DNA from: Phycisphaerae bacterium
Lineage (GTDB): Bacteria; Planctomycetota; Phycisphaerae; SM23-33
NCBI GenBank assembly: GCA_018335035.1
Contig: JAGXKT010000011.1
Location: 1-64,000, forward strand
DNA: 64,000 nt
Direction: 5' to 3'
Both the position numbers and the translations under genes were made by a program. The notes beneath the pieces are model-generated. The model saw nothing but the letters and a program-made list of their open reading frames with translations. It searched no databases and was not told the origin of the DNA. How positions within the stretch are numbered: position 1 is the first letter of the stretch; the number at the start of each line of letters is the position of its first letter. This document shows positions 13,708 to 47,222 of this stretch, piece after piece.

Positions 13708-14014
13708 GTTTCAGGAAAACGAGGTTCTGACGCTGCTTCTGGGGATTGGTGCGCTGGCGTTCGTCCTTGTGATGCACCGGCGTCTGCGCCGCCTCCCGGC
13801 CTGCGGGATCATGGTGTCCGCCCTGGGCGTGATGCTCCTGGCGTGGCTGGCGACCAATCTCGAGGCCGTGCGCTTCTCGGCCAGCGCCGTCACGACGAAG
13901 CGCTGGTCGAACGCGCTCAACATGCTGGAGCACATCGGCTACGCCGTCAGCGCGGCTCTGCTGCTGGCGTGGGCGCTGCTGGTATATCGCACAACGCGAG
14001 GGAGGGGGCCATGA
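13700..14014 (+). CDS. Small three-TM membrane protein coupled to the histidine kinase
   Basis: 104 residues with three hydrophobic helices: about 9-24, 36-51 and 78-95. The start ATG lies inside the end of kdsA, and the gene ends with ATGA overlapping the kinase start. Its layout (helix, basic loop, helix ending AWLATNLE, a loop with NALNMLEH, then a last helix) matches the N-terminal 85 residues of the next protein (HYVSNTLE, KKLDAVED, last helix). It may be a free-standing paralogue of the kinase's membrane sensor module. No named family was recognised. Confidence 0.65.
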   Translation: MPEFQENEVLTLLLGIGALAFVLVMHRRLRRLPACGIMVSALGVMLLAWLATNLEAVRFSASAVTTKRWSNALNMLEHIGYAVSAALLLAWALLVYRTTRGRGP

Positions 14015-16689
14015 GCGTACCGGCGATGTGCAATCTGCTGGCGCTGGTAGGCGTGGTGGTGGCGGGCGTTTTCGTGTTGCGCGTGCCCCGCCGCGTGCTG
14101 CGCGGCGACGCCAAGATGGTGCTGGCCGTCATGCTGGGGCTGATGGCGTTTCACTACGTCAGCAACACGCTGGAATGGTCCGGCATTACCAAGAAGCTCG
14201 ACGCCGTCGAGGACTACTTCGAAATCCTGGTACCCCTGGTCTGGATATTTTTTCTCTACGTTTTCCTGCAGGACGTCGCCGAGAGCGACCTCCGGCAAAG
14301 CGAGGAGCAGCAGCGCGCTTTGCTGCAAAGTATGCAGGAAGTCGTGATCTACCACGACAACGACATGCGCATCGTCTGGGCCAACCGCGCGGCCGCCGAG
14401 TCCGCGGGCATGCGGCGCGAGGAGCTGCCGGGCAAGGCATGCCACGACGTCTGGAACGACAGCGACGTTCCCTGTGAGGAGTGTCCCGTCGTCGCGGTTC
14501 AGTGCACCGGCAAGCCCGCCCAGGGGCAGCAGACGACGGCCGACGGACGCATCTGGCACATCCGCGCCGCACCGGTCCAGGACGACAGCGGCGAGATGAT
14601 CGGCATGGTGGAAGTCGCCTCGGACGTCACCGCCGAACGGAAAGCCGAGCGGGCATTGCGGGACAGCGAACAGCGGTTTCGCCAACTGGCGGAGATGCTG
14701 CCCGGGATCGTCTTCGAAATGGAGCCGAATGGGCAGTTGACGTTCGCCAACCGCAATGCCTTTGCGATGCTCAATCGCAGCTACGAGGATTTCCAGCGCG
14801 GCATCAGCGCGTTCGACCTGGTCGCGCCCGCCGACCGGAAGCGCGCGATCGAAGACGCCCGCGCGGCGATGGTCGGCGGGCCCACCGGCCCGTTCGAGTA
14901 TCTGCTGCAGCGCGGCGACGGGACGACGTTCCCCGCCGTCGTCTGCGGCGCGCCCATCCGCCGTGACGATCGCATCACGGGGCTGCGCGGCATCGCCACG
15001 GACATTTCCCGGCACAGGCAGGCCGCACGCGAACTCCAGCGCGAGCGCGACTTCAGCCGCTCGTTGGTCCAGGCCTCCCCGGCGTTCTTCGTCGCCATCG
15101 ATTCAGAGGGCAAGACGCTGATGATGAACGAGGCCATGCTCCAGGCCCTCGATTACACCTCCGAACAGGTCGTGGGCAAGCCCTACCTGGACACGTTCGT
15201 GCCCGACGAAGACCACGACGCCGTCAGCGAGATGTTCCAGACGCTGCTGACGACGAATCGCTCCGTCGTGCACGAAAACCGCATCCTGACGCGGGACGGG
15301 AGCCAGCGGCTGGTGGAATGGCACGGCCGGCAGGTCTTCGGCGTGTCGGATCAGCCGGAGTACTTCTTCGGTGTGGGCATCGACGTCACCGAGCGACGAC
15401 GGGTCGAGGAGCAACTGCGCCAGGCGCAGCGCCTCGAAGCCGTCGGGCGACTGGCGGCCGGTATCGCGCACGACTTCAACAATCAACTCAGTGTCGTCAA
15501 GGGCTACTGCGATCTGCTGATGGGCGGACCGCTGGACGACAAGAAGGCCGTCTCCGAAGGGCTCAGAGAGATTGAACGGGCCAGCCATCGCGCCGCGAAG
15601 CTGACCGGGCAGTTGCTCGCGTACAGCCGGCAACAGGTCCTCCGCCCGGAGATCGTGGACCTCAACGAGGTCCTCCGCGACATGACCAATCCGTTGCAGC
15701 GCATGATCGGCGAGGACGTCCGCCTGTCCGTTGTGACCGATCCAAGCGCCGGGCGCGTGCGCGTCGATCCCGCGCGGCTGCAGCAGGCCGTGATGAACCT
15801 GGCCACCAACGCGCGAGACGCCATGCCCGACGGCGGCGAGCTGCATTTGGAGGTGGCCAACGCCGACATGGACGCGGAGTTCTACCGCCGCCATCGGGAC
15901 GTCACGGCGGGCAGCCACGTGATGCTCATCGTGCAGGATACGGGCGTCGGCATGCCACCCGACCAACTCACCGCGATCTTCGAGCCGTTCTACACCACAA
16001 AGGAAGTCGGAAAGGGCACCGGGCTGGGCCTGTCGATGGTCTACGGCTTTGTCAAGCAAAGCGGCGGGCACGTCGTCGTGCGCAGTGCGCCCGGTCACGG
16101 CACGGTGGTCCGGCTGATCCTGCCCCGCGTCGACGAAGCCGCCGAAACGCCCGATCCGCCTTCCGACACGCCGCAGAGGCAAGACGCGTCACAGCCGGCC
16201 GGCGCGGCCCCATCCCGTCCGTCAATGCCCCGGCAAGCCAACGCCTCGGCCGCGGAGAAGGCGCCCCGGCGCCTGCTGGTCGTGGAGGATGAGCCGGCCG
16301 TCCGCGGCATCCTCGTCCACATGCTGCGTGACGGCGGCTATGACGTGATCGAGGCCGAGAGCCCCAACGAAGCCCTCCAGACCATTCGCGACGATTCGAT
16401 CCGCGTGGACCTGCTGATCACGGACGTGGTCATGCCGGAGATCAGCGGCCCGCAACTGGCCGAGCGCGTCCGCGAAATCGACCGGAACCGTCGCGAGAAC
16501 GACGACGCGGCCGGCGAACGTCCGCCGTTGAACGTGCTTTATGTCTCCGGGTATCCCGACGGGCGCTGCCAATCGTCTGAGGCACCGGCGTTCGGGGAGG
16601 ACGCCCGCGTCGTCGCCAAGCCCATTGACTATGACGAGTTGCTTCAGGCCGTCCGCGACCTGCTCGACGCCGCCGGCGAGCAGCGTTAA
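14011..16689 (+). CDS. Hybrid sensor histidine kinase: 3 TM, three PAS, HisKA, HATPase, receiver
   Basis: 892 residues. Three membrane helices occupy residues 1-85. PAS domains lie at about 100-205 (EVVIYHDNDMRIVWANRAAA), 222-335 (GIVFEMEPNGQLTFANRNAF) and 348-465 (FFVAIDSEGKTLMMNEAML). The dimerisation helix has the phospho-acceptor His487 in GIAHDFNN. The ATPase shows NLATNARDAMPDGG, DTGVGMP and GKGTGLGLSMVYG. The C terminus is a receiver domain (LLVVEDEPAVRG) with acceptor Asp805 in LLITDVVMPE. No separate response regulator is adjacent, so phosphotransfer probably ends on its own receiver or elsewhere. The ATG at 14011 follows GGAGGGGG and overlaps the previous stop (ATGA). Confidence 0.92.
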   Translation: MSVPAMCNLLALVGVVVAGVFVLRVPRRVLRGDAKMVLAVMLGLMAFHYVSNTLEWSGITKKLDAVEDYFEILVPLVWIFFLYVFLQDVAESDLRQSEEQQRALLQSMQEVVIYHDNDMRIVWANRAAAESAGMRREELPGKACHDVWNDSDVPCEECPVVAVQCTGKPAQGQQTTADGRIWHIRAAPVQDDSGEMIGMVEVASDVTAERKAERALRDSEQRFRQLAEMLPGIVFEMEPNGQLTFANRNAFAMLNRSYEDFQRGISAFDLVAPADRKRAIEDARAAMVGGPTGPFEYLLQRGDGTTFPAVVCGAPIRRDDRITGLRGIATDISRHRQAARELQRERDFSRSLVQASPAFFVAIDSEGKTLMMNEAMLQALDYTSEQVVGKPYLDTFVPDEDHDAVSEMFQTLLTTNRSVVHENRILTRDGSQRLVEWHGRQVFGVSDQPEYFFGVGIDVTERRRVEEQLRQAQRLEAVGRLAAGIAHDFNNQLSVVKGYCDLLMGGPLDDKKAVSEGLREIERASHRAAKLTGQLLAYSRQQVLRPEIVDLNEVLRDMTNPLQRMIGEDVRLSVVTDPSAGRVRVDPARLQQAVMNLATNARDAMPDGGELHLEVANADMDAEFYRRHRDVTAGSHVMLIVQDTGVGMPPDQLTAIFEPFYTTKEVGKGTGLGLSMVYGFVKQSGGHVVVRSAPGHGTVVRLILPRVDEAAETPDPPSDTPQRQDASQPAGAAPSRPSMPRQANASAAEKAPRRLLVVEDEPAVRGILVHMLRDGGYDVIEAESPNEALQTIRDDSIRVDLLITDVVMPEISGPQLAERVREIDRNRRENDDAAGERPPLNVLYVSGYPDGRCQSSEAPAFGEDARVVAKPIDYDELLQAVRDLLDAAGEQR

Positions 16690-18122: not shown

Positions 18123-18133
18123 AGCATTTGTGG

Positions 18134-18490
18134 ATGACTCGTTTCATGTCAAGGACTGAGGACACAGCGACCGGGCAGCACGCTCCCGGCAGGCGGCTGC
18201 AAGCAGGCGCCGATGCGGGTGCCGCCGCGCGTCCCGCTCGCCGGCCGATCCCGCCGCGGCGGTATCGCGTGGGCGAACTGGTCGAGTTCGCCGGCGTCAG
18301 CCGGCAGACCATCCACAACTACACGACCATGGGGCTGTTGCCCGAGGCCCACTGGACACCGGGCGGGCACCGCTGCTACGACGCCTCGGCCTTCGAGCGG
18401 CTGGAGCAGATCGCCGCGATGAAGGCCGCCGACAAGACCTTGACGGAGATTCGCGACTACTTCGCCGGTATGGATACCGACACGTTGTAA
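18134..18490 (+). CDS. MerR-family transcriptional regulator
   Basis: 118 residues. A 40-residue basic/Ala-rich leader precedes a MerR winged helix: YRVGELVEFAGVSRQTIHNY, TMGLLPEAHWTPGGHRCYD, then FERLEQIAAMKAADKTLTEI. The length leaves no effector or metal-binding domain beyond a short helix, as in small MerR regulators. It directly precedes the flagellar operon (39 bp gap) and may control it. The start is uncertain: ATG at 18134 or 18146, neither with a strong ribosome site. Confidence 0.8.
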   Translation: MTRFMSRTEDTATGQHAPGRRLQAGADAGAAARPARRPIPPRRYRVGELVEFAGVSRQTIHNYTTMGLLPEAHWTPGGHRCYDASAFERLEQIAAMKAADKTLTEIRDYFAGMDTDTL

Positions 18491-18529: not shown

Positions 18530-20425
18530 ATGAAGCGGCCGAGAAAATTTCGCATTCGCCTCGCTCGACGATGGGCCGGGCTGACGAGGCGACAGCGCTA
18601 TGGCGCGTTCGGCTTGGCGGCGCTGCTGATCGTCGCCGGTCTCTGGCTGGCGCTGGCCGGGGCGGGCCCCGAGCCGGTCGCCCTGACCGATGCGCCGCTG
18701 TCGCCGGAACAACGCGACCGCGCCGCCGAGGCGCTGGACGCCGCGGGCATTCCGTACGAACGCCAAGGCGGGCACCTCCTGGTCGCGGTGGATGACCTTG
18801 CCCGCGCGCAGGGCGCCGTGACTCCAGACACCGACGAAATCGACCCCGCCGCGGCTCTTCATCGACTCGCAGATAGCCGGGACATCTGGTCGTCGGCGGC
18901 CCAAAAATCCCAGCGCTGGCAGGCGACGAAGATGCTGACACTTGGGCGCCTCATCGAGCGGTTCGACGGCGTGGCCTCGGCGACCGTACTGTTCGAGCCG
19001 GGCTCGCCGCCACGGCTTGGCGCGCCCGGCGTGGCCCCGACAGCCGTGGTCAACGTCACCCTCGCGCCGGGCACCCAGATGACCGACCTGCTGGTGGAGG
19101 CCATCGCCGACCATGTGGCCGGGCTCATTCCAGACATGAAGTCCCAGGCGGTTCGCGTCATCGACAGCAGCGGCAAGAGCTATCGCGCCGCCACGGCCGG
19201 GGCGCTCAGCGACCTGACCCGTGCCGAAGCGCATTACGAAAACAAGGTTCGCGCCGCCCTGTCGTACATGGACGGACTGACCGTGGCCGCTCACGTCGAA
19301 CGCACCGACGGACACATTCGCTGCACGGGCGTCTCCGTAGGCGTGCCGCGCACCCGTCTCATGTCCGAGCACGCGGCCGGTGACGGCGACGCCTTCGCCG
19401 CGAGCGCCGCGGCCTTGACGGACAGCATCCAAACGTGCGTGCAGCGTGTCATCGGTGCCGAAACGCCAGACGCCGTGGCCGTGCATTGGTACGCGGACGG
19501 GCCGTCCGCTCCGGCAACGGCCGTACGCCGCAGGCATCCGACGACGGATGCGACCTCACCGGGCCCAGCATGGGCGGCTGGCGGCGCGGCAGCTCTGGCC
19601 GCCGGGACCCTATTGTGGCTCGTGCGGCGCCGGCGCAAGCGCCCGGACGGACGATCCACCGCCAAGCCAGCGTCGCCCCTGCCACAGGCGACGGACGCAT
19701 CCGGAGCCCCGCCGACCGACGGTGACGCCGCACCGGCAGCGGCGCCCTTCGCGGCCTTGCGCGACGTGCCCACCGACACGCTGCTGGCCGCGCTGCGGGG
19801 GCAGGAGCCGCAGATCGTCGCCCTGGTTCTGGGGCATCTGCCGCCCGACAAGGCCGCGGCGATACTCGGCGGGTTGAGCGGCGCGGCGCAGGTGGACGTC
19901 ATTCGGCGGATCAGCAGGATGCAACCCGTAGACGACGCGTACGCCCGGCGTATCGCGCGAAGCGTGAGCGATCGCTGCACCGCCGCCGCGACCAATGATC
20001 CGGTCGGTGGCCCGGGCGCCGCAGCCGAACTGCTTGCTCGCGCCGGACCAGGCACCGCGCGGGGCGTCCTCGGCGCCCTGGAAGACGGCGAGCCCGCCCT
20101 GGCCGAAACGTTGCGGCGGAGGATTTTCGCCTTCGAAGACCTTACCGGCGTGCCGGCCGAGGCGCTGCACGCCGGCTTGATGGAACTGGAGACGGACGAG
20201 GTGGCCGTGGCGCTGATGGCTGCGGACGAACCGGTGGTCAAAAAAGCCATGGCGTGCCTGCCGGCGTCGGCGCGGCGCGAGCTGCGTACCACGATGGACG
20301 AACTGGGCGCCGTGCGCGTCGCCGATGTCGAGGCCGCCCAGTGGCGCCTCGTCGCGGCCGTGCGACGCGCCGCTGCGAGACGCGGGCGCTACGTGTCCGA
20401 GCGCGCCGGGCGGACGAACGCATGA
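18530..20425 (+). CDS. fliF-fliG: Natural FliF-FliG fusion (MS-ring/C-ring protein)
   Basis: 631 residues. Residues 1-390 are FliF-like: TM helix at about 23-44, a ring-building motif (LTDAPLSPEQRDRAAEALDA ... GIPYERQGG), then SAAQKSQRWQATKMLTLGRL, APTAVVNVTLAPGTQM and AEAHYENKVRAALSYMDGL. A second TM is at about 347-366 (AAGGAAALAAGTLLWLV). From about 410 the protein is FliG: EPQIVALVLGHLPPDKAAAI, then FEDLTGVPAEALHAGLMELE and LGAVRVADVEAAQWRLVAAV. The FliG N-terminal domain and the FliF tail that normally bind it are missing, replaced by a Pro/Ala linker. The beta-collar insertion of FliF also seems absent. An uninterrupted frame excludes a sequencing frameshift. It overlaps fliO (ATGA). 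Confidence 0.88.
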   Translation: MKRPRKFRIRLARRWAGLTRRQRYGAFGLAALLIVAGLWLALAGAGPEPVALTDAPLSPEQRDRAAEALDAAGIPYERQGGHLLVAVDDLARAQGAVTPDTDEIDPAAALHRLADSRDIWSSAAQKSQRWQATKMLTLGRLIERFDGVASATVLFEPGSPPRLGAPGVAPTAVVNVTLAPGTQMTDLLVEAIADHVAGLIPDMKSQAVRVIDSSGKSYRAATAGALSDLTRAEAHYENKVRAALSYMDGLTVAAHVERTDGHIRCTGVSVGVPRTRLMSEHAAGDGDAFAASAAALTDSIQTCVQRVIGAETPDAVAVHWYADGPSAPATAVRRRHPTTDATSPGPAWAAGGAAALAAGTLLWLVRRRRKRPDGRSTAKPASPLPQATDASGAPPTDGDAAPAAAPFAALRDVPTDTLLAALRGQEPQIVALVLGHLPPDKAAAILGGLSGAAQVDVIRRISRMQPVDDAYARRIARSVSDRCTAAATNDPVGGPGAAAELLARAGPGTARGVLGALEDGEPALAETLRRRIFAFEDLTGVPAEALHAGLMELETDEVAVALMAADEPVVKKAMACLPASARRELRTTMDELGAVRVADVEAAQWRLVAAVRRAAARRGRYVSERAGRTNA

Positions 20426-20958
20426 TGCGAACCGAAGCCGAGACAACCCGACGCTACGGACCGGTCGTTTGGCTGGTGGCCGCGGCCGTGACCGGCGCAA
20501 TGGCGTTGCCCGTCGCCGTGGCGACGGCGCAAGACGGCCCGGAAAGCCGCGCCGTCCCGCCCGGCATGGAGGATCAGCGCGTCGGCGACGAGGGCGGCGG
20601 AGGCATCTGGCCCTGGGTGCGAACGGGCATGGCGCTGGCGGTGGTCGTGGCGCTGGTCTTCGCGGCGCGATGGCTTCTGCGCCGCTGGGCGGGTTCGGCC
20701 GGCGGCAAACCGCCTGTCGACGTTGTCGCCCGCAGCGCGCTGTCCGCGCGGCACCGGCTGTACCTGGTGCGCCTCGGCGAACGGCTGGTGCTGATCGGCG
20801 GCGGCAACGAAACGCTGACCACACTGGCCGAAGTGACGGACCCCGACGAGATCGCCGCCTTGTGCCGCGGCGCCGGAGGGCAACACGTCGATGCCGACAC
20901 GAGCTCCCGGGACGCCCCAGACGATGACAACGCACGCGACGAGACGGAGTCGCCATGA
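20422..20958 (+). CDS. fliO: Flagellar biosynthesis protein FliO
   Basis: 178 residues. It has an N-terminal signal-like helix (WLVAAAVTGAMALPVAVATA), a second TM (VRTGMALAVVVALVFAARWL) and a small cytoplasmic domain: VDVVARSALSARHRLYLVRL, then GERLVLIGGGNETLTTLAEV. This is the FliO/MopB pattern. FliO assists assembly of the FliP ring of the export gate. Both ends use ATGA overlaps (with the fliF-fliG fusion and with fliP), so the three genes are tightly coupled. Confidence 0.85.
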   Translation: MMRTEAETTRRYGPVVWLVAAAVTGAMALPVAVATAQDGPESRAVPPGMEDQRVGDEGGGGIWPWVRTGMALAVVVALVFAARWLLRRWAGSAGGKPPVDVVARSALSARHRLYLVRLGERLVLIGGGNETLTTLAEVTDPDEIAALCRGAGGQHVDADTSSRDAPDDDNARDETESP

Positions 20959-21752
20959 CCGCACGGGCCCGGATCATCTTGATCGCTCTGGCCCTGACCG
21001 CCCTGCCGACCGCGGCGGACGCGGCGCCGGACGGACCCGCCGAAACGACAACGCAACCGGCGAGCCGACCCGGCGTGCAGATCGACCTGAAGCAGATCGA
21101 CTCGCCGCAGGCCGTCTCCGGCGGGCTGAAGTGGCTGGCGCTGATCACGGCGTTGTCGGTCGCCCCGGCCGTGATGTTGCTGGTGACCTGCTTCACGCGG
21201 ATCGTCGTGGTCCTCGGGCTGCTGCGGCAGGCGCTGGCGACGCAGCAGCTTCCGCCGAACCAGGTGCTGTTCGGGCTGGCGCTGCTGATGACGGTCGTGG
21301 TGATGTTCCCGGTCTACCAGGACGTCCACCGCGACGCGATCGGCCCGTACCTCGACGGCGAGCTGACCGGCGCCGCGGCGCTGGATGCCGGCACGACGCA
21401 CGTGCGGGCGTTCATGATCCGCCAACTCGAGGCGTCCGGCAACGGCGGGGACGTGTACCCGTTCCTGCCGGACGACCTGGCCGGGCGCGACAACCTGACC
21501 TGGCGCGACGTGCCGACGCTGTCGCTGATCCCCGGGTTCGTCATCAGCGAGCTGAAGATCGCCTTCACGATGGGTTTTCGAATCTTCCTGCCGTTTCTGG
21601 TTATCGACATGCTCGTCGCCAGCGTGCTGACGTCGATGGGCATTCTGATGCTGCCGCCGGTGCTGATCTCGTTGCCGTTCAAGCTGCTGCTGTTCGTCCT
21701 GGCCGACGGGTGGCACCTCGTGGTCGGGACGCTGATGCAAAGCTTCGGGTGA
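20955..21752 (+). CDS. fliP: Flagellar type III export gate protein FliP
   Basis: 265 residues with a cleavable-type signal peptide followed by the FliP core. Motifs: LALITALSVAPAVMLLVTCF, TRIVVVLGLLRQALATQQLP, PNQVLFGLALLMTVVVMFPV, and PGFVISELKIAFTMGFRIFL with MGILMLPPVLISLPFKLLLF near the end. FliP forms the core of the membrane export channel with FliQ and FliR. After its stop the operon is broken by a 113-bp repeat-bearing gap before fliQ. Confidence 0.95.
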   Translation: MTARARIILIALALTALPTAADAAPDGPAETTTQPASRPGVQIDLKQIDSPQAVSGGLKWLALITALSVAPAVMLLVTCFTRIVVVLGLLRQALATQQLPPNQVLFGLALLMTVVVMFPVYQDVHRDAIGPYLDGELTGAAALDAGTTHVRAFMIRQLEASGNGGDVYPFLPDDLAGRDNLTWRDVPTLSLIPGFVISELKIAFTMGFRIFLPFLVIDMLVASVLTSMGILMLPPVLISLPFKLLLFVLADGWHLVVGTLMQSFG

Positions 21753-21865: not shown

Positions 21866-22123
21866 ATGGACACTGTGACCGCGACAGACTGTGCCCGACA
21901 GGCCGTAATGCTGACATTGCTGCTCGGTGCGCCCGTATTGGGCACCGGTCTGGTCGTGGCGCTGATCGTCAGCGTGCTCCAGTCCGTCACGCAGGTCCAG
22001 GAACAGACGCTGAGCTTCGTGCCCAAGATCGTGGCGATGCTGCTTGCCGCCGTGGCCTGCGGGGCGTGGATGCTGACGCGATTGACGGAATTCGCCCGCG
22101 CGATGTTCGGCGCCGTTCCCTGA
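21866..22123 (+). CDS. fliQ: Flagellar type III export gate protein FliQ
   Basis: 85 residues with two hydrophobic helices (MLTLLLGAPVLGTGLVVALI and VPKIVAMLLAAVACGAWM) joined by SVTQVQEQTLSFVPK. This is the characteristic FliQ/SctS segment, and the length is normal for the family. It lies downstream of fliP after the palindromic repeat and 83 bp before fliR. Confidence 0.93.
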   Translation: MDTVTATDCARQAVMLTLLLGAPVLGTGLVVALIVSVLQSVTQVQEQTLSFVPKIVAMLLAAVACGAWMLTRLTEFARAMFGAVP

Positions 22124-22206: not shown

Positions 22207-22989
22207 ATGGACCTGTCCGAGCTGACAATCTGGCTTCCGACACTGATGCTGGTGCTGGCGCGTGTCGCGGGGCTGTGCGTGGTGGCGCCGGTGCTGTCGC
22301 ACGCGGCCGTGCCGATCCGCCTGCGTTACGCGGTCAGCGTCGTGATCGCCCTGGCCGTGGTGGGCACCGGTCGGTGGGTCGGCCCGCCGGCGGCGATGCC
22401 GACGAGCTGGCTGCCGCTGGCGGGCCTTATCGCGGTCGAGGCGGCGATCGGCGCGGTGATCGGCTTCGCGGCGCGGCTGGTGTTCGTCGGCATCGAGCTG
22501 GGGGCGTTCCACGCCGGCACGCAGATGGGCCTGACGTTGGCGGAGATTTACGCCCCGGCCGGCGGGCCCGCGCCGGGCGTAACACGGCGTTTGTTCGTGC
22601 TGACGGCGATCGTGGTGTTCCTGGCGATCGGCGGACACCGCGAGCTGCTTGGCGGGGTGGTGCGGTCGTTCCGCACGGTGCCGCCGGCGACATTCGCGAT
22701 CGACCGCAACGTGCTGACGATGATCGTCGCCCTGTTGGGCGCGTCGTTTACGCTCGCGCTGAAGGTCGCCGCGCCGGTCCTGGCGGCGATGCTGCTGGCG
22801 ACGGTGGCGCTGGGACTGCTCCAGCGCAGCATTCGCCAGTGCAACCTGCTGTCGACGGGCCTGCCGATTCGGGCGCTGCTCGGCCTGGCCGTAATGACGC
22901 TCGCCCTGGCGGCGCTGCCCGACCTGGTCGAGCAAGCGTGGACCTTGACCGCACGTGAATTGCCCGCGGCACTGTCCGGGGCACGATGA
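22207..22989 (+). CDS. fliR: Flagellar type III export gate protein FliR
   Basis: 260 residues, almost entirely hydrophobic. MLVLARVAGLCVVAPVLSH opens the protein; AVPIRLRYAVSVVIALAV, LIAVEAAIGAVIGFAARLVF and IELGAFHAGTQMGLTLAEIY follow. These are FliR/SctT motifs. FliR closes the FliP5-Q4-R1 export gate. The length is typical. A second palindromic repeat separates it from flhB. The ATG is immediately preceded by the heptamer repeat rather than by a clear Shine-Dalgarno. Confidence 0.93.
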   Translation: MDLSELTIWLPTLMLVLARVAGLCVVAPVLSHAAVPIRLRYAVSVVIALAVVGTGRWVGPPAAMPTSWLPLAGLIAVEAAIGAVIGFAARLVFVGIELGAFHAGTQMGLTLAEIYAPAGGPAPGVTRRLFVLTAIVVFLAIGGHRELLGGVVRSFRTVPPATFAIDRNVLTMIVALLGASFTLALKVAAPVLAAMLLATVALGLLQRSIRQCNLLSTGLPIRALLGLAVMTLALAALPDLVEQAWTLTARELPAALSGAR

Positions 22990-23116: not shown

Positions 23117-23911
23117 ATGGCAACAGCAACGGACAACGCGGCCGAGCGAAGCTACGAGCCCACGCACCTGCGTTTGCGCGAGGCGCGGCGGCGCGGGAAG
23201 GTTGCGCGCAGCGCAGACCTGGCCGCTGCGGCCGTGCTGCTCGGCGGCGCGGCGGGGCTGGGGCTTCTCGGCGGACGTCTGCTCGGCAAAACCGTCGCCA
23301 TGACGCGCGCCCTGCTGGACGGGCGTTCTGCGCCACTGGTCGGGCCGAGCGAGTTGGCCGGCATCGCCGCTGATGCCGTCACGCCGCTGCTGACGGCTTT
23401 GGCGCCGCTGGCGGCGGCGCTGGTCCTGCTGGCCGTGGCGGTCAACGTCGGGCAGGTCGGCCTGCTGGCCACCGGCGCGCCGTTGCGACCGGTTCTGGCG
23501 CGGATCGGCCTGACGGCGGGCTGGCGCCGGCTGATCTCGGCACGGACGGGCGTACGCGCGGGGATGATTATCGGCAAGCTGGCGGCCATCGGCGTCGTTG
23601 CCTGGATAACCGTCGCCGACGCCCTGCCGCGCGTCGCGGCGATGGGGCGGCTCGCACCGCGTGCGCTGGTCAGCGAAACGGGCGCGCTGGCCTGGACGCT
23701 GGCGATGCGCGTCGCGCTGGTGCTCGGCGTTCTTGGCCTGGCGGACTACCTGTTCCAGCGGCGGCAGCTTCGGCGCGAGTTGCGCATGACGCGGCGCGAG
23801 TGGCTGGACGACCTGCGCCGCACCGAAGGGCACCCCCTGGCGCGCCGCCGACACCGCAAAGACAGCGCCGGCACACCGTCCGAGGCCATGACGGAGGTGA
23901 CCCATGTCTGA
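23117..23911 (+). CDS. flhB: FlhB membrane domain without the autocleaving cytoplasmic domain
   Basis: 264 residues. It starts like FlhB (YEPTHLRLREARRRGKVARS) and has four membrane segments. It continues through LGLADYLFQRRQLRRELRMT and RREWLDDLRRTEGHPLARRR, equivalent to the FlhB linker. It then ends after a short unrelated tail. Canonical FlhB is about 350-380 residues and carries the NPTH autocleavage site just beyond this point; that domain is absent. The flhA start overlaps the flhB stop by 8 bp, so nothing is hidden downstream in another frame. Substrate-specificity switching must work differently or the domain is supplied elsewhere. Confidence 0.88.
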   Translation: MATATDNAAERSYEPTHLRLREARRRGKVARSADLAAAAVLLGGAAGLGLLGGRLLGKTVAMTRALLDGRSAPLVGPSELAGIAADAVTPLLTALAPLAAALVLLAVAVNVGQVGLLATGAPLRPVLARIGLTAGWRRLISARTGVRAGMIIGKLAAIGVVAWITVADALPRVAAMGRLAPRALVSETGALAWTLAMRVALVLGVLGLADYLFQRRQLRRELRMTRREWLDDLRRTEGHPLARRRHRKDSAGTPSEAMTEVTHV

Positions 23912-26081
23912 TGCCCCGACAAGTCGGCGGCTCATGGCGGCCGCCCATCGCCATCGCGGGTTGCTGCTGCCTCTGGCGGCGGCGGGGTTGATCTTCGCGA
24001 TTCTGGTGCCGCTGCCGCCCGGGGCGGTCGACGTGTTGCTCTCAGCGAACCTCGCCCTGGCCGCGTGCGTGCTGCTGACCGCGATCTACGTCTCCCGCCC
24101 GCTCGAGTTCAGCGTGTTTCCGTCTCTGCTGCTGGGCGCGACGCTGTTGCGACTGGTGCTGAACGTCGCGACGACACGTTTGATTCTCACGGCCGGGGAG
24201 AACGGGCGCACCGCCGCCCAGGCGCAGCTCGCCGCCGGGCAGGTGGTCTGGTCATTCAGTGAGTTCGTCGCCGCCGGGTCGCTCGTCGCCGGCGCGGTGG
24301 TCTTTGCCATCGTGGTGATCGTGCAGTTCGTGGTCGTCACCAAAGGCGCCGGTCGGATCAGCGAGGTCGCCGCGCGGTTCGTTCTGGACGCGATGCCGGG
24401 CAAGCAGATGGCCGTCGACGCGGACCTCAAGGCCGGACTGATCAACGATGCCGAGGCGCTGCGCCGGCGCGACGACGTCGCCCGCCAGGCCGACTTCTAC
24501 GGCGCCATGGATGGCGCCAGCAAGTTCCTCCGCGGCGACGCCGTCGCGGCCGTCATCATCACACTGATCAACATCCTCGGCGGGCTCTACGTGGGCATGG
24601 TCCGCTACGGGTGGTCCTGGGACGAGACGAGCCAGCTGTTCACCCGCCTGACCATCGGCGACGGGTTGGTCACGCAAATTCCGGCATTCATCGTCTCGGT
24701 CGCCGCGGCGCTGATGGTCACGCGACGCGCCGCCCGCAGCAACCTCGGCGAAGAGGTGATCGCGCAACTCGCATCGCGTCCGGCGGTTCTGGCCGTCACG
24801 GCCGTGTTCCTCAGCGCGCTGGCACTGACGTCGCTTCCGAAGCTGCCACTGCTGTTTCTGGCCGGGGGATGCGCGGGGTTGGCGTGGCTGCTCGGTCGGC
24901 GCAACGCCGGTGCACCGCGAGCCGGCGCGAGCGACGGGGCCGAATCCCGCGGGCGCCGCACCGACACCGGCCGCGACGCCGACCAGGCGGGCTCCGATTC
25001 GCCCGGAGTCGGCGCGTCGGCACGCGAGACCACCCGCGTGTCCGCCGCGCGTCAAATCGACCCGCTTCGCATCGAGCTTGGCTTTGCGCTGGTCCGCCTG
25101 GCCGACAGTGGCCAACTTCTGGACCGCATCGCTGTGTTGCGGGACGAGATCGGCAGCGAGCTGGGGTTGGTAGCGCCGCCCGTGCGGGTGCGCGACAATC
25201 TGCGGCTTGCCGCGCACGAATACCGTATCGGCGTCCGCGACGCTGCTGTTGCGACCGGAATGCTGTACGCCGGGCGGCTTCTGGCGGTCCCCGGCGCGCA
25301 CGCCGCCGGCAAGCTCGAAGGCCGCGAGGGCACCGAGCCCGTCTCGGGCCTCCCCGCCGTTTGGATCGAGCCCGGCCGCGCCGACCGCGCCACGCGCATG
25401 GGCTACCGCACCGTCGCGCCGGAAGACGTGCTCATGGCGCACCTGGGGCGGGTCGTCCGCGTTCGTGCGGCCGAACTGCTCTCGCGCGAGCAGGTTGCCG
25501 AGATGCTCGCGTCGCTCGAGGCGGACCATCCGCATCTCGTCGCCGAGGCGCGGCAGCGGCTATCGTTGGCGCGCATCCAGAAGCTGCTCCGCCGCCTGCT
25601 CGGCGAGGCGGTGCCGATCCGCGACCTCGAAACGATCCTTGAAGCAGCCACGGACGCCGCCGAGGGGACCGACCGCATCGACGAGATCACCGAGCAGGTG
25701 CGCGCCGCGTTGGCACCGGCCCTGCGACAACAGTATGCCTCGTCGGACGGGCGCATCTGGTGCGTCCGCTTCAAGCCGGAGCTGGAAAACGCGATTCACG
25801 CCCACGTGCACGACACGCCGCAAGGTCCGGCCGCCGCGCTGCCGCCCGCGCTGGCCGGCCGCATCGCCGACGCCGTCACCGACGAGTTGGCCCGCCTGCG
25901 CCGCGAGGGGCGCCGCGGCGTGGTGCTCTGTGCGCCCGCGTTGCGATCAGCCGTGCGCACGCTGCTCGCCCCCTCCGACCCCGATGCCGCCGTGCTTGCG
26001 TACAACGAAGTCACCTCGGCCGACGTGCAATCCGCCGCAACCGTCGCCGCCGACGTCGTCCAAACCGCCGAACACGCATAG
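23904..26081 (+). CDS. flhA: Flagellar export protein FlhA
   Basis: 725 residues. The N-terminal half has eight or so membrane helices with the conserved cytoplasmic loop: FSVFPSLLLGATLLRLVLNV, FVVVTKGAGRISEVAARFVL and DAMPGKQMAVDADLKAGLIN. GDGLVTQIPAFIVSVAAALM is the FHIPEP-type signature region. The C-terminal half is the cytoplasmic ring domain (IELGFALVRLADSGQLLDRI, VRVRDNLRLAAHEYRIGVRD). FlhA forms the nonameric ring that docks substrates and couples proton flow to export. An Ala/Gly/Arg-rich linker (about residues 330-375) joins the halves and is longer than usual. Confidence 0.96.
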   Translation: MSDAPTSRRLMAAAHRHRGLLLPLAAAGLIFAILVPLPPGAVDVLLSANLALAACVLLTAIYVSRPLEFSVFPSLLLGATLLRLVLNVATTRLILTAGENGRTAAQAQLAAGQVVWSFSEFVAAGSLVAGAVVFAIVVIVQFVVVTKGAGRISEVAARFVLDAMPGKQMAVDADLKAGLINDAEALRRRDDVARQADFYGAMDGASKFLRGDAVAAVIITLINILGGLYVGMVRYGWSWDETSQLFTRLTIGDGLVTQIPAFIVSVAAALMVTRRAARSNLGEEVIAQLASRPAVLAVTAVFLSALALTSLPKLPLLFLAGGCAGLAWLLGRRNAGAPRAGASDGAESRGRRTDTGRDADQAGSDSPGVGASARETTRVSAARQIDPLRIELGFALVRLADSGQLLDRIAVLRDEIGSELGLVAPPVRVRDNLRLAAHEYRIGVRDAAVATGMLYAGRLLAVPGAHAAGKLEGREGTEPVSGLPAVWIEPGRADRATRMGYRTVAPEDVLMAHLGRVVRVRAAELLSREQVAEMLASLEADHPHLVAEARQRLSLARIQKLLRRLLGEAVPIRDLETILEAATDAAEGTDRIDEITEQVRAALAPALRQQYASSDGRIWCVRFKPELENAIHAHVHDTPQGPAAALPPALAGRIADAVTDELARLRREGRRGVVLCAPALRSAVRTLLAPSDPDAAVLAYNEVTSADVQSAATVAADVVQTAEHA

Positions 26082-26090: not shown

Positions 26091-27242
26091 ATGGACACGA
26101 AAACCTACCGAGCCGCCACAATGGCAGACGCGATCGCCGAGGTCAAACACGACCTCGGCCGCGACGCCGTTATCCTCCGCACGCGCCGGCGCCGCACCGG
26201 CGGGCTGCTGAAGCTTTTCGGCGGCCGACGCGTCTGGCACGTCACCGCCGCCGGCAGCGACAGCGCGCCGGCGCCCAAACGCCACGCCCAAGACCATGAC
26301 GGCACCTACGTTCCCATGCGCCGCCCGGACGACAACGCGACGTCGGCCGAACCCGACACGCCGGAGCCATCCGCCAGCGTGCCGCGCGAGATCGCCGAGA
26401 TCCGCAAGATGGTTGCCGCGCTGCTGGCCCGCGGCGGCGATGACCAGAACATGCCGCCGGCGTTCCAGACGTGCCGCGATCAACTGATCGAGCAGGACGT
26501 CGCACCGGAACTCGTCGACGAGCTCATGAGCGCCTGCCGCCATGAACTGACGGGCCAGCAACTCGATGACGTCGCGGCCGTGCGGAGTGTGATCCGTCGC
26601 GCAATCGCCGCGCGGATCCGCACGGCGGCTGCACCGACCGCCGGACGGCAGGTCATTGCGCTGGTCGGGCCAACGGGCGTGGGCAAGACCACGACCATCG
26701 CCAAGCTGGCCGCGACCGCCAAGCTTCGTGACAATCGGCGTGTCGGGCTCGTGACGCTGGATACGTATCGCATCGCCGCGGTTGAGCAACTCAAGACCTA
26801 CGCCGACATCATCGAGGTGCCGATCCATACCTGCCTCGGAGCCGGCCAGCTCCGCCAGGCGGTCCGGCGTCTCGCCGACGCCGACCTCGTGCTGATCGAC
26901 ACGGCCGGACGCAGCCACAACGACACGCTGCGCCTCGGCGAGTTGCGCCGCATGCTCGGTGGCGCCGACGCCGACGAGATCCATCTAGTCGTCGCCGCCA
27001 CCGGCAGCCGCGCCTGCACCCGACGCGTCGTTGAACGTTTTGCCCCCCTCGGCGCCAACCGCATCTGCCTGACAAAGCTTGACGAGGCCGAGACGTTCGG
27101 TAACGTGCTCAACCTCGCGGCCGCGTGCGACGCGCCGCTGAGCTATGTGACGACGGGGCAAGACGTGCCCGATGACATCGCCCAGGCCGACGCGGACGAC
27201 CTGGCTCGCCGGATCATGGGAGAGGACCATCGTGACGCGTGA
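26091..27242 (+). CDS. flhF: Flagellar placement GTPase FlhF
   Basis: 383 residues. The N terminus (TYRAATMADAIAEVKHDLGR, DAVILRTRRRR) is FlhF-specific. The SRP-type NG domain begins with the P-loop GPTGVGKTTTIAKLAA at about 193 and continues with VGLVTLDTYRIAAVEQLKTY, LVLIDTAGRSHND and NRICLTKLDEAETFGNVLN. FlhF is an FtsY/Ffh-like GTPase that sets flagellar position and number. The spacing from flhA is 9 bp, and the overlap with flhG is 11 bp. Confidence 0.94.
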   Translation: MDTKTYRAATMADAIAEVKHDLGRDAVILRTRRRRTGGLLKLFGGRRVWHVTAAGSDSAPAPKRHAQDHDGTYVPMRRPDDNATSAEPDTPEPSASVPREIAEIRKMVAALLARGGDDQNMPPAFQTCRDQLIEQDVAPELVDELMSACRHELTGQQLDDVAAVRSVIRRAIAARIRTAAAPTAGRQVIALVGPTGVGKTTTIAKLAATAKLRDNRRVGLVTLDTYRIAAVEQLKTYADIIEVPIHTCLGAGQLRQAVRRLADADLVLIDTAGRSHNDTLRLGELRRMLGGADADEIHLVVAATGSRACTRRVVERFAPLGANRICLTKLDEAETFGNVLNLAAACDAPLSYVTTGQDVPDDIAQADADDLARRIMGEDHRDA

Positions 27243-28080
27243 CGATCAAGCCGGCAAGCTGCGACAACTGATGCGCGACGTGCGCACCACGCGCACAATC
27301 GCCGTCACCGGCGGCAAGGGCGGTGTGGGCAAGTCGAACGTCGCGCTGAACCTGGCGATCCTCCTGTCCGCCGGGGGCAATCGCGTGGCGCTCGTCGATG
27401 CCGACCTGGGCCTGGCGAACCTCGACGTGCTGCTGGACGTCGCAGCGCCGTATGACCTGTCGCACGTCGTCCGCGGACGCAAGCGGCTGGCGGAGGTGAT
27501 CGTCGACTTGCCCTGCGGCGTTCAGCTCGTGCCCGGCGCCAGCGGGCTGGAGCACCTGACCCGCCTGGGCGAGTTCGAGCAGGCGCGTCTCATCGAGGAA
27601 CTGACCGCCCTGGAAGCCGACAACGATTTCATCGTCGTGGACTGCGCCGCCGGCATCGCCCCGGCGACGATCCGGTTCGCCACATCGGCCGACAACACGA
27701 TTCTCGTGAGCACCCCGGAGCCGACCGCCATCACCGACGCCTACGCCGTCGTCAAGGTCCTCACGCGCCATGGGTACGACGGGCGGATGAGTTTGCTGAC
27801 CAACATGGTTGCCGACCGCCACGAGGCCCGTGCATCGTACGAACGGCTCTCGGGCGTGGCGCGACAGTTCCTCGCCATGCGGGTGCTCGATGCCGGTTAC
27901 GTCCTCCGGGATGTCAAATTGCCCGACGCCGTCCGCCGGCGCGAACCGGTCGTGCTGGCCTATCCGCGATGCCCGGCGACCCGCTGCCTGGCCGCGCTGG
28001 CCAACAAGCTTGGTCGCGGCGGGCTGTTGGTCAAGGAAGAAATGGGCTTTTTCAGGCGGCTGGCCCGCTGGTTTGCATAA
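27232..28080 (+). CDS. flhG: MinD-like ATPase FlhG (FleN)
   Basis: 282 residues. Deviant Walker A motif GGKGGVGKSNVALNLAI at about residue 26, VALVDADLGLANLDVLLDV (the LGLAN/DVL signature of FlhG/FleN), and DNDFIVVDCAAGIAPATIRF. STPEPTAITDAYAVVKVL is also typical. The C terminus ends in an amphipathic helix (GFFRRLARWFA) likely to be a membrane-targeting sequence. It controls flagellar number with FlhF. The GTG at 27232 follows GGGAGAGGA; the frame extends upstream inside flhF but has no better start. Confidence 0.92.
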   Translation: MTRDDQAGKLRQLMRDVRTTRTIAVTGGKGGVGKSNVALNLAILLSAGGNRVALVDADLGLANLDVLLDVAAPYDLSHVVRGRKRLAEVIVDLPCGVQLVPGASGLEHLTRLGEFEQARLIEELTALEADNDFIVVDCAAGIAPATIRFATSADNTILVSTPEPTAITDAYAVVKVLTRHGYDGRMSLLTNMVADRHEARASYERLSGVARQFLAMRVLDAGYVLRDVKLPDAVRRREPVVLAYPRCPATRCLAALANKLGRGGLLVKEEMGFFRRLARWFA

Positions 28081-28355: not shown

Positions 28356-29150
28356 ATGATGCATCTCAAGGCCAACCAAGCCCCGCCCGAGCAGGTGCAG
28401 CAATGGTGGAACGCGTACCGCAATACGTCCGACGAGCAGGCGCGCAATCACTTGTTGGAGCATTACTTGCCGGCCGTCAAATACAGCGCCGAGCGGCTTC
28501 ACGCCAAATTGCCGGACGAAGTGGATGTGGATGACCTCATCTCGGCCGGTATCTTCGGTCTGATGGACGCCCTGCGGGCGTTCGACCCCGACCGCGGGGT
28601 GAAATTCGAGACCTACTGCGCCCCCCGCGTCCGCGGGGCGATTCTCGACGAGCTGCGGTCCATGGACTGGGTCCCGCGCCTCGTCCGCAGCCGCGCCCAC
28701 AAGCTCAACGAGGCCGCCGGCCAGCTTGAGGCCGAGCTCGGACGAAAGCCCGACGCCCGCGAGTTGGCGAAGTGCATGCGCCTGTCGATGAAGGACTTCC
28801 GCAAGCTCCAGCGCGACGCCCAGGCCGTCGGGCTGATCTCGCTGAACCGCAAATGGTTCGAGACCGACTCCAACAAGGACGTTCGCGAGATCGACGTGCT
28901 GGAGGACAAGAGCTCCGACGACCCGTTCCGCGCCGCCCACCGCAAGGACATCAAGGAACTGGTCACCCGCGGGCTCAGCCGCGCCGAGCGTCTGATCGTC
29001 ATCCTCTACTACTTCGAGGAGATGACGATGAAGGAGATCGGCGAGACGCTCGATCTGTCCGAAAGCCGCGTCTCGCAGATGCACTCGGCCATCCTCGAAC
29101 GCCTCAAAATGCAACTCGAAAACCGCAAGAAGGACCTGCAGGCCGTCTAG
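28356..29150 (+). CDS. fliA: FliA/WhiG-family RNA polymerase sigma factor
   Basis: 264 residues with sigma regions 2, 3 and 4: HYLPAVKYSAERLHAKLPDE, VDVDDLISAGIFGLMDALRA, FDPDRGVKFETYCAPRVRGA and ILDELRSMDWVPRLVRSRAH in the N-terminal half. Region 4 is LSRAERLIVILYYFEEMTMK and EIGETLDLSESRVSQMHSAI. The R(G)AILDELR.MDWVPR segment is diagnostic of the FliA/WhiG subgroup. As the last gene of the flagellar region it is expected to transcribe late motility genes elsewhere. No FlgM-like anti-sigma factor is adjacent. Confidence 0.94.
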   Translation: MMHLKANQAPPEQVQQWWNAYRNTSDEQARNHLLEHYLPAVKYSAERLHAKLPDEVDVDDLISAGIFGLMDALRAFDPDRGVKFETYCAPRVRGAILDELRSMDWVPRLVRSRAHKLNEAAGQLEAELGRKPDARELAKCMRLSMKDFRKLQRDAQAVGLISLNRKWFETDSNKDVREIDVLEDKSSDDPFRAAHRKDIKELVTRGLSRAERLIVILYYFEEMTMKEIGETLDLSESRVSQMHSAILERLKMQLENRKKDLQAV

Positions 29151-36005: not shown

Positions 36006-36263
36006 TTACACCTCCAGCACGCGGCGGAGGATTTGCCCGGCCGCGTCGGTGAGTCGCCCGACGAGATCCAGCTCGCTGCGGTCGCGGTAGAAGGCGGCCA
36101 CGGCGCGGCGGTAGGCGTCCGTCTTGCGCAGCGAGGCGACGGACCGGTCGGTGACGGCGATGCGGTCGATGACGGCCGCCAGGGACGGATGCTCCGCCGC
36201 CCAGGCGTCGAAGGCCTCTCCGACGGCTTGCTCAACGGCGTGGCGCACGAGGTCACTGGTCAT
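36006..36263 (-). CDS. Small helical protein, last gene of the phage-type cassette
   Basis: 85 residues, almost all predicted helix (DLVRHAVEQAVGEAFDAWAA, DAYRRAVAAFYRDRSELDLV). It overlaps the upstream lipoprotein gene by 11 bp and is the most downstream gene of the cassette. No family recognised. Confidence 0.55.
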   Translation of the reverse strand: MTSDLVRHAVEQAVGEAFDAWAAEHPSLAAVIDRIAVTDRSVASLRKTDAYRRAVAAFYRDRSELDLVGRLTDAAGQILRRVLEV

Positions 36264-36771
36264 AGCGAATGCTCCGGTAGAGGGTCAAAACGGTCTTCTG
36301 GACGCGGTCGCGCAGCGCCCACTGGCGGACGATCAGTTCCTGGGCCATCGCCAGCGCCTCGTCGGCGGCGGCGAGGTTGTCGGCGCGCGTGGCGTGGGCT
36401 TGCTCGGCGGCGCGGGCCTGCTCGGCAAGGGCGTCGCGCGCCGCGGCGTAGCCCTTCCGCGCCGAGATGACCCACTCCGCCGTCAGGGCGACCGGCGCGC
36501 CGGCGGCGTCCGTCAGCTCGCCGGACGCGACGCGCGCCACGTCCGCGTCGAAGGCGGCGTCCAGGGCGGCCCGCCGGGCGGCGATGCGCTCCAGCGCGGC
36601 GGCGTGGTGGTCGCTCTCGGCCTGTTGGGCGCCGGCGAGCCCTTGGCGGGCGACGGCAAGCAGCTCCGTCGTCGCCGGCGGGGCGCCGCAGCCGGTCAGC
36701 GGCGCGACGGCGCAGGCGGCCGCGAGAAGCAAGGCGGTTCGGCGCGATCTACGGTGACGGTGTGTGTCCAT
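36253..36771 (-). CDS. Predicted lipoprotein with a long helical domain
   Basis: 172 residues. The N-terminal signal (TALLLAAACAVAPLTGC) ends in a lipobox-like LTGC at the cysteine. The rest is Ala-rich helix (ALERIAARRAALDAAFDADV, AWALRDRVQKTV-like end). It overlaps the next upstream gene, a one-TM coiled-coil protein, by 23 bp. A membrane protein followed by an overlapping lipoprotein resembles phage spanin pairs, but the sizes and order are only suggestive. Confidence 0.6.
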   Translation of the reverse strand: MDTHRHRRSRRTALLLAAACAVAPLTGCGAPPATTELLAVARQGLAGAQQAESDHHAAALERIAARRAALDAAFDADVARVASGELTDAAGAPVALTAEWVISARKGYAAARDALAEQARAAEQAHATRADNLAAADEALAMAQELIVRQWALRDRVQKTVLTLYRSIRYDQ

Positions 36772-37078
36772 TTCGAAGCTCCCGTGCGAGGTCCTTGAGG
36801 GTCTCGACGACCTGGCGTTGCGTTTCGGTGAAGCGCCCGACGGCGGCGGTGTTCTGCTCGACGACGCGTGTGAGCTGCTCGAGCCGCTGCTCGTCGCGGG
36901 CGATGCGCTCGTGCGCGTCGGTCAGTTGCTGTTCGCGCACGCGGCTCAGGCGCCGCTCCCACAGCCACATCGCCCCCATCACCCCGGCCGCTCCGAGCGA
37001 GGCGACCTGCGAGGCGACGGTCACGTCCGCGGCGGGCGGACATGCCCGTCCTGCGATTTGCGCCATCAAATCCAGCAT
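36749..37078 (-). CDS. Small one-TM, coiled-coil protein (possible holin or spanin-like)
   Basis: 109 residues. One hydrophobic segment (VASLGAAGVMGAMWLWERRL) is followed by a coiled coil (SRVREQQLTDAHERIARDEQ, LEQLTRVVEQNTAAV). Phage cassettes commonly place a holin-like protein here, but no lysin is adjacent. It starts 15 bp after the previous stop. Not assigned to a family. Confidence 0.55.
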   Translation of the reverse strand: MLDLMAQIAGRACPPAADVTVASQVASLGAAGVMGAMWLWERRLSRVREQQLTDAHERIARDEQRLEQLTRVVEQNTAAVGRFTETQRQVVETLKDLARELRNGHTPSP

Positions 37079-37093
37079 GCCGACGGCTCCGGG

Positions 37094-38155
37094 TCAGTTG
37101 GGCGGCGTGTTGAGTTCGAATGCCACACACAGCGTGGCCGCGACGAGGATGGTCTCGCTGCCGGCATCGGCCCGGCGGAGCAGGAAGTTCGCCGGCTCGG
37201 CCGAACCGTACGGGTCGTCGGGGATCATGGTCTGGCAGGCGGCCGCCAGCGTCGTGCCGGTCAGCGTCCCCGGCTCGCCGCTTGTCAGGTCCACCGCGCC
37301 GATGTAATCGGCGTCGCCGTCGCCGGTGCCGCCGGGCTCGTTCCACGCCAGTCCGGCCGCCGGGGCGTACTCGTTCCACGTGGGCGGGTCGGCGTTGAAG
37401 TCCACGTCCCGCTTGCAGCGGTACACCGCAACCGTGCAGTCGGCATCGGCCTGCAGCACCAGCTCGGTGCTTGCCAGGACGGTCAGGTTCGCCAGCCCGC
37501 GTTGCGGGGCGTCCGGCGCCCGCAGCAGGGCGAAGCCCACGCTGCGCAGCTCGTTTCCGTAGGCGTCGCGGGCGATCAGGTCGCCCAGCCAGGGCGTATC
37601 CGGCAGGGGCGAGTAAAGCCCGCAGGCGAGGTAGACCGGCAGCTCCCACCGCCCGCGGCGCAGCCACTCGACGACCTGGCGCAGCTCGTTGCCGTGGACG
37701 GCGCGGATCGGCGTGGCGCCCGGGATCAGCGTCGCGTCGGTCCAGTCGTCGCCGGCGTTGAGCTTGTCGAACAGGCCGACCTCGCCCGGCCCAGGATTGG
37801 TCGCCACGATGAGCTTGCCCGCGTCGCCGTCGTCGACCGGCCAGAGCCACCGCATCGCCTGCGGCGAGGCGGGCGAGCCGCCCAGCGTGCCGGTCGGCGG
37901 GTCCAGAACGCTCTGGGCGAGGTTGTCGCGCAGGTTGTCGAACGGCGGCGCGGAGGCGGTGGCAAACGTGGCCGCGCGGATCGGCAACCCGGGCGCGATG
38001 TGCGAGGAGACGTCCTGTGCGGCCTGGTAGGTCAACCGGCGGCGGCGGTTGACGGCATCGGCGAGTTCGTCGCCGTCGCAGAGGGCGACGGCGTGCTCGC
38101 CGGCGACCAGCCGCCCGGGCGGGTCGGATTGCGTCCAATCGGCGGTGTAGGTCAT
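37094..38155 (-). CDS. Phage-cassette protein, unknown (353 residues)
   Basis: 353 residues with mixed alpha/beta composition: ELADAVNRRRRLTYQAAQDV, GNELRQVVEWLRRGRWELPV, LTVLASTELVLQADADCTVA and YLACGLYSPLPDTPWLGDLI. No membrane segment. It starts 2 bp after the stop of the previous gene, as elsewhere in this cassette. A tail or appendage role is inferred only from position. Confidence 0.55.
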   Translation of the reverse strand: MTYTADWTQSDPPGRLVAGEHAVALCDGDELADAVNRRRRLTYQAAQDVSSHIAPGLPIRAATFATASAPPFDNLRDNLAQSVLDPPTGTLGGSPASPQAMRWLWPVDDGDAGKLIVATNPGPGEVGLFDKLNAGDDWTDATLIPGATPIRAVHGNELRQVVEWLRRGRWELPVYLACGLYSPLPDTPWLGDLIARDAYGNELRSVGFALLRAPDAPQRGLANLTVLASTELVLQADADCTVAVYRCKRDVDFNADPPTWNEYAPAAGLAWNEPGGTGDGDADYIGAVDLTSGEPGTLTGTTLAAACQTMIPDDPYGSAEPANFLLRRADAGSETILVAATLCVAFELNTPPN

Positions 38156-38157
38156 GG

Positions 38158-38709: not shown

Positions 38710-38711
38710 GC

Positions 38712-40430: not shown

Positions 40431-40437
40431 TGGCGTC

Positions 40438-41022: not shown

Positions 41023-41083
41023 GTGCGATGAGCGCGCGTTGTTGACGCTGGGCAGGGCCCACGTCGAACGGGGTCTTGCGGTC

Positions 41084-44607: not shown

Positions 44608-44609
44608 TG

Positions 44610-45263: not shown

Positions 45264-45344
45264 GGGTCGGCTCCCGATGTCCGCCTCCCGCCGCGGCACC
45301 CCCGTCCATGGGGTGCCGCGCCGATACGGCAGGCGGAAGAGCGG

Positions 45345-46505: not shown

Positions 46506-46576
46506 GATTCGTTCCTCGTGAGGTCAGGTGTGTGTGGGCGTGTTGCGCGGCCGGAACGTCCGCCCGCAGCGCGGCC

Positions 46577-47194: not shown

Positions 47195-47222
47195 GGGAGG
47201 ATCCTTTCGCGTCAGGGCGGGG

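Follow-up and report, generated by a model that had tools for sequence, protein, structure and literature searches.

A single gene in this DNA joins FliF to FliG, and its 631-residue product probably serves as the membrane-ring scaffold in a type III export core that derives from a flagellum, has no rod and does not rotate. The gene lies at positions 18530–20425 on the plus strand of the window, by which we mean the whole 64,000-nucleotide stretch analysed, from a Phycisphaerae bacterium. An initial annotation of the same DNA had proposed a natural FliF-FliG fusion serving as a covalent flagellar rotor. The fusion itself is real, as judged from the open frame, Pfam, AlphaFold2 and its recurrence in 18 of the family's 35 genomes. 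The evidence does not support a working flagellar rotor, given a separate flagellum with full-length fliF and fliG on another contig, relatives that lack rod and hook genes, loss of the torque charges and a truncated FlhB.

The frame gives an uninterrupted translation of 631 amino acids plus a stop, which was examined with Pfam, AlphaFold2 and Foldseek. Pfam matched YscJ_FliF at residues 57–217 (3.2e-16), FliG_M at 417–488 (1.6e-16) and FliG_C at 516–616 (8.7e-25); YscJ_FliF_C gave no match in the Pfam search of the fusion protein. The AlphaFold2 model, built with 20 relatives, had a mean pLDDT of 76 and a pTM of 0.30, so the domains are reliable and their placement relative to one another is not. 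Domain search and structure prediction both showed FliF followed by FliG_M and FliG_C, and the model bore out the annotated FliF half with two transmembrane segments. From the N terminus the protein consists of transmembrane helix 1 (residues 20–42, positions 18587–18655; AlphaFold2 helix and sequence), RBM1 (residues 49–97, 18674–18820; AlphaFold2), RBM2 (residues 123–219, 18896–19186; Pfam YscJ_FliF, AlphaFold2, and Foldseek matches to 8wkq and 6sd2), RBM3 (residues 225–321, 19202–19492; AlphaFold2 and alignment) and transmembrane helix 2 (residues 352–368, 19583–19633; AlphaFold2). A low-confidence linker follows (residues 369–407, 19634–19750); it is disordered over about 40 residues, with pLDDT below 50 across residues 367–402. 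Beyond it lie FliG_M (19751–19993; Pfam), in which the FliM-binding EHPQ motif reads QEPQ, and ARM_C with FliG_C (20012–20383; Pfam), in which the torque charges are substituted. Residues 408–618 were modelled as helical and of armadillo type. In Foldseek and PDB sequence searches the FliG side matched the FliG M-C structure 1lkv and the FliF side matched the MS-ring structures 8t8p, 8wkq and 6scn; the engineered Vibrio FliF-FliG fusion 8z4d was also among the matches.

Three segments have been lost from the fusion. Two of them, the FliF C-terminal tail and FliG_N, are the partners that ordinarily connect the MS-ring to the C-ring, and the linker stands in their place. Alignment with separate FliFs of the class showed that the conserved FliG-binding tail is absent, and the FliG portion begins at FliG_M, as Pfam and AlphaFold2 also indicated and as had been annotated. 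A weak FliG_N match below the Pfam cut-off overlapped the FliG_M and ARM repeats and was rejected as a sign that this domain is kept. The third segment is the beta-collar. The annotation had described it as reduced, and the change goes further: about 85 residues within RBM3 of separate class FliFs are replaced by a short turn at approximately residues 259–262 (19304–19315), between the strands of a predicted hairpin at residues 251–259 and 262–273. The Pfam profile for full FliF with its beta-collar (PF08345) matched only the separate FliF on contig C30 of the same genome, and not the fusion. Since both proteins form one chain, FliF and FliG are held covalently at the annotated ratio of 1:1.

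The annotation had named read evidence of a frameshift between the two parts as something that would weaken its claim. A frameshift or misassembly is excluded, because an uninterrupted fusion frame was found in 18 of the 35 genomes of the window's family, which spans 28 genera. Among 397 sampled genomes of the class, full-length matches were limited to these 18, and the others carried separate FliG frames of about 340–385 amino acids. No further fusion was found in a phylum sample of 392 genomes; long open frames in four genomes (G505, G522, G534 and G632) were rejected, as they encode full-length FliGs with FliG_N, preceded by sequence that looks out of frame. The relatives include the Phycisphaerales/Phycisphaerae MAGs UBA12270, B1Sed10_206R1, fen_1349 and Zod_Metabat.26, and some of their contigs are short. 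The 18 fusion lineages are deeply diverged (35–40% identity) and contain no stops. For one pair of genomes without any rod or hook gene (G049 and G050), the only pair in which dN/dS could safely be measured, dN/dS came to 0.022/0.19 across the full length and 0.009/0.19 in the FliG portion. Both halves of the fusion are thus under purifying selection in this pair; selection on the copy in the window's genome is read from the intact frames.

The fusion gene belongs to a cluster of ten intact, mostly overlapping genes, all on the plus strand of the window. The first gene of the locus encodes a MerR-type helix-turn-helix regulator (18128–18490; Pfam MerR_1, 2e-13), and of the 14 further fusion loci compared, 13 have a MerR gene directly before the fusion. 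Downstream are fliO (20422–20958; Pfam FliO, 3.8e-11), fliP (20955–21752; Pfam FliP, 6.8e-69, and above the NCBIfam fliP cut-off), fliQ (21866–22123) and fliR (22207–22989), the last two identified by both Pfam and NCBIfam. They are followed by flhB (23117–23911), flhA with its cytoplasmic domain (23904–26081; Pfam FHIPEP, profile positions 2–654 of 657), flhF, encoding an SRP-type GTPase (26091–27242; NCBIfam FlhF, 227 bits, above cut-off), a flhG-like gene for a MinD/ParA ATPase (27232–28080; Pfam ParA/CbiA) and a gene for a FliA/WhiG-type sigma factor (28356–29150; NCBIfam FliA_WhiG, 255 bits, above cut-off). The domains of FliP, FliQ, FliR and FlhA are full in the window, and the 264-residue FlhB consists of the transmembrane part (Pfam Bac_export_2, profile positions 2–240 of 335), the C-terminal autocleavage (NPTH) domain being absent by profile and alignment. 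FliP scored 231 against a flagellar cut-off of 217 and 143 against a yscR cut-off of 209, and FlhA scored 705 with the flagellar model and 512 with hrcV (NCBIfam). By these profile scores, which are not a tree, and with FlhB partial, the export gate is of flagellar and not of NF-T3SS (injectisome) type. Elsewhere in the window, an 892-residue PAS-rich hybrid histidine kinase with a receiver domain is encoded at 14011–16689, a short distance before tgt and the fusion cluster, and short, mostly overlapping genes on the minus strand at 36006–48866 resemble a prophage or phage-like structural cassette.

Fifteen fusion loci share the order MerR, fusion, fliH, fliI, fliN, fliO, fliP, fliQ, fliR, flhB, flhA, flhF, flhG and sigma-28, of which fliH, fliI and fliN, and flhF and flhG, have been lost in some lineages; dapF is often the next gene. 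The window cluster is without fliH, fliI and fliN. Across the family fliH, fliI, fliM and fliN are missing from five fusion genomes and flhF and flhG from four, and the subclade formed by G018, G022, G042 and G044 has neither fliH, fliI and fliN nor flhF and flhG. The five gate proteins are full-length over their membrane domains in most fusion genomes. The parts of an injectisome-type core that are present are homologues of the gate and of the SctJ-like ring, together with the ATPase in most relatives and not in the window cluster. The fusion clusters examined contained no flgB, flgC, fliE, flgD, flgE or mot genes, and no secretin, needle or tip protein, substrate or chaperone was found among their conserved genes. 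In the reduced subclade a small conserved open reading frame on the minus strand (L133:9361–9825) lies between the fusion and fliO; it matches no Pfam family, has relatives at three or more further fusion loci, and may be either a remnant or a novel partner. In one genome (G005) the flhB of the cluster is split over two frames (L132:9198–10663), owing to a sequencing error or to decay.

Outgroup genomes of the class carry the order histidine kinase, NtrC, flgB, flgC, fliE, fliF, fliG, fliH, fliI, flgD, flgE, mot genes and fliN, followed by fliO, P, Q, R, flhB, flhA, flhF, flhG and fliA in the same order as in the fusion cluster. The FliF and FliG of outgroup families are also closer to the fusion than is the FliF/FliG pair on contig C30. 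Because of this shared gene order and closer relationship, the fusion cluster is best read as a reduced, in-place descendant of the ancestral, class-wide flagellar operon.

We then compared the residues that generate torque, in E. coli FliG numbering. R281 together with D/E288 and D/E289 was present in all 61 separate planctomycete FliGs and in only one of the 18 fusions. The window fusion has the substitutions R281S, D288T, D289T and K264M; in some fusions these positions carry reversed charge, and R297 is kept in all 18. In a control, columns with 95% or higher conservation in separate FliGs were kept at 60% on average in the fusions, and the charged columns among them at about 46%. The torque columns, kept at 22–33%, fall somewhat below this charged average and are not outliers, which indicates an absence of constraint and no special change. 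The NPTH motif was absent from all 12 alignable FlhBs of the fusion clusters, ten of which end before the cytoplasmic cleavage domain; it is present in the C30 FlhB and in three of four outgroup FlhBs, the fourth having NPTE.

At the FliM docking site, 12 of the 13 fuller-cluster genomes still have the EHP motif of FliG_M, against none of the five reduced genomes (p = 7e-4). The reduced genomes branch at two or more separate positions in the fusion tree, the window's genome standing apart from a fully supported clade of the other four, and loss of the motif and its partner therefore appears to have happened at least twice independently. A divergent stand-alone FliM-like protein, in a frame of 270–355 amino acids, is encoded mostly between HflX-like and CstA-like genes, named by inspection (loci L178–L185: G010:C97:19065, G041:C58:29662, G004:C275:1589, G021:C442:6118, G050:C29:69064, G009:C107:34731, G005:C184:3399 and G045:C44:115451). 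Its gene was found in most fuller-cluster genomes and is absent from the five reduced ones, which makes it a candidate FliM of the fusion system. That docking site and docking partner vanish together argues that the fused FliG_M may still act as the seat of FliM where the partner exists.

The search for other fliF and fliG genes that the annotation had called for revealed a complete conventional flagellar cluster in the window's genome, at C30:36397–85355, several of its genes being named by sequence inspection only. It comprises flgL, K, N, J, I, H, A, G, F, E and D, flgB, flgC, fliE, full-length fliF (upstream, at about C30:58914–60440) and fliG (C30:60460–61455), fliH, I and J, motA and motB genes, fliL, M, N, O, P, Q and R, a 366-residue flhB, flhA, fliA, a flagellin-like gene, fliD and fliS; no flhF or flhG was seen beside them. 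The annotation had stated that a separate full-length fliG would weaken its claim, and the C30 fliG is such a gene. All five PF00460 (rod/hook) matches of this genome are on C30, as are its only FliM/FliN and type III ATPase genes; a search of the genome for further rod/hook or FliM/FliN genes that could serve the window system found none. The C30-type flagellum is best read as a second, more distant system, perhaps acquired, as its FliF and FliG lie far from those of the class. A conventional flagellum is also encoded in 11 of the 18 fusion genomes. The other seven (G004, G010, G041, G049, G050, G019 and G021) have the fusion, no second FliF or FliG and no PF00460 gene. Their completeness is 91, 90, 89, 83, 72, 73 and 68%, respectively, and the odds that incompleteness explains all seven absences are about 4 in a million, an estimate that assumes independent loss of whole clusters.

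Might ring and gate be kept for something other than secretion? They could form a repurposed membrane platform that organises the cell pole, regulates or provides an anchoring site, perhaps together with FlhF and FlhG for the C30 flagellum or in the manner of the flagellar-export 'CORE' proposed for nanotubes. Loss of the FlhB C-domain and, in the window, of FliH, FliI, FliM and FliN would fit such a role, as would the presence of flhF and flhG in the window cluster and not beside the C30 genes; in non-flagellated Lysobacter, left-over flagellar export proteins affect twitching (PMC7277350). We nevertheless regard it as unlikely: the gate proteins are full-length across the membrane in most genomes, the fusion-only genomes have no flagellum to organise, and one subclade dropped flhF and flhG yet retained fusion and gate. 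A still smaller probability attaches to a relic, an old operon decaying after its replacement by a C30-type flagellum. The stepwise loss of fliH, fliI, fliM and fliN, of flhF and flhG, and the frame-split flhB of G005 point that way, but the fusion is free of stops in all the deeply diverged lineages, both its halves are under purifying selection in the pair measured, the ten window genes are intact, and genomes without another flagellum have retained it.

The co-occurrence of a conventional flagellum in most fusion genomes, and the motility of comparable Salmonella fusions (PMC7355467; PMC6079021), would suit a hybrid or second flagellum in which the fused ring acts as another rotor or base and draws on the rod, hook and filament genes of C30. 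This is very unlikely in view of the seven genomes without rod or hook genes, the deleted collar, the lost torque charges, an FlhB incapable of substrate switching and a cluster without stator genes. That the fusion is the organism's sole covalent flagellar rotor, as its domain order and the Salmonella precedent might suggest, is scarcely credible, being contradicted by the separate, complete fliF and fliG of the C30 cluster and by every point against a hybrid flagellum.

We therefore return to a flagellum-derived export core. The system is classed as a flagellum-derived type III system because it lacks features that define a flagellum (the rod, the collar, the torque charges and cleavage of FlhB) and because the gate scores as flagellar type. 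In our model the single chain would form an MS-ring from RBM1–3, the domains that make this ring in flagella, minus the rod-gripping collar, and would hold the FliG_M and FliG_C domains of the C-ring by a flexible tether; the covalent tether would make the joint between FliF tail and FliG_N unnecessary. The ring would house the FliPQR-FlhB-FlhA gate and would have no means of gripping a rod; none is encoded in the cluster. In the fuller form, FliM and FliN may dock on the fused FliG, with its EHPQ motif kept, and present FliH-FliI, the C-ring thus serving as a cargo-loading platform and not a switch, with FliI as the energy source. In the window form, its own FliH, FliI, FliM and FliN gone and the motif eroded, export would have to depend on proton motive force or on parts borrowed from the C30 flagellum. 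An FlhB without its self-cleaving domain implies that there is no switch from rod/hook to filament substrates. FlhF and FlhG may position the machine, and the MerR protein and sigma-28 factor may control it. Export is not certain, because the window cluster has no FliH, FliI, FliM or FliN of its own and because model species no longer carry out flagellar export once the FlhB C-domain is deleted. Given suitable conditions, Salmonella is capable of type III export without the ATPase (PMC4230889), and a Campylobacter FlhB C-domain deletion still assembles C-ring-stage complexes with FlhA (PMC9380563), so that assembly without this domain is plausible.

No natural FliF-FliG fusion was found in the open-licence papers searched, and nothing on point concerning a second type III system in Phycisphaerae. 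Laboratory fusions likewise place FliF and FliG in one chain; they include a Vibrio construct (PDB 8z4d; PMC11481574) and a motile Salmonella deletion fusion, delta-FliF.FliG, that has lost the FliF tail, as here, and most of FliG_N (PMC7355467; PMC6079021). The laboratory fusions assemble and can rotate (PMC7355467; PMC6079021), but they do so inside complete, motile flagella that have the beta-collar, a rod, the torque charges and an intact FlhB; the window fusion is natural, conserved in a family, collar-less and part of a rodless system. The closest functional analogue is the 'Myxo' NF-T3SS of Myxococcales (Abby and Rocha 2012, PMC3459982), whose locus also has export genes without FlgBCDEK, FliE or MotAB, no secretin or needle gene seen, and a long-conserved gene order that argues for function. 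It differs in having no FliG and in branching with injectisomes (PMC3459982), whereas the fusion system has kept FliG, fused to FliF, has retained FlhF, FlhG and sigma-28, has a gate that scores best as flagellar type, and visibly descends from a local flagellar operon. Non-flagellated Lysobacter enzymogenes has similarly preserved flagellar type III export genes, which function without flagella; the part of the report cited here describes no FliF-FliG fusion or collar deletion (PMC7277350). The fused FliR-FlhB of some flagella (NCBIfam NF009411) is another natural joining of neighbouring flagellar genes, within the export gate and not from MS-ring to C-ring.

Ring and gate have been retained despite loss of the collar, the torque surface and the FlhB switch and, in some lineages, also of the ATPase and C-ring. 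If the system exports, all of these would be dispensable for export as such, which raises the question of what a type III gate minimally needs. The fusions also provide natural collar-less, covalently joined ring proteins for structural work. On balance, we favour a second, independent case in which a flagellum became a non-motile type III secretion system, within one family of Phycisphaerae and marked by a covalent MS-/C-ring, collar deletion and an FlhB that no longer cleaves itself. The route known so far, by which flagella gave rise to secretion systems, has been inferred from very old events. Here the conversion seems likely to have left surviving intermediates that reveal the order of loss: an ancestor-like operon, a fuller rodless form and two separately stripped forms are all extant, so that the steps would be directly readable.
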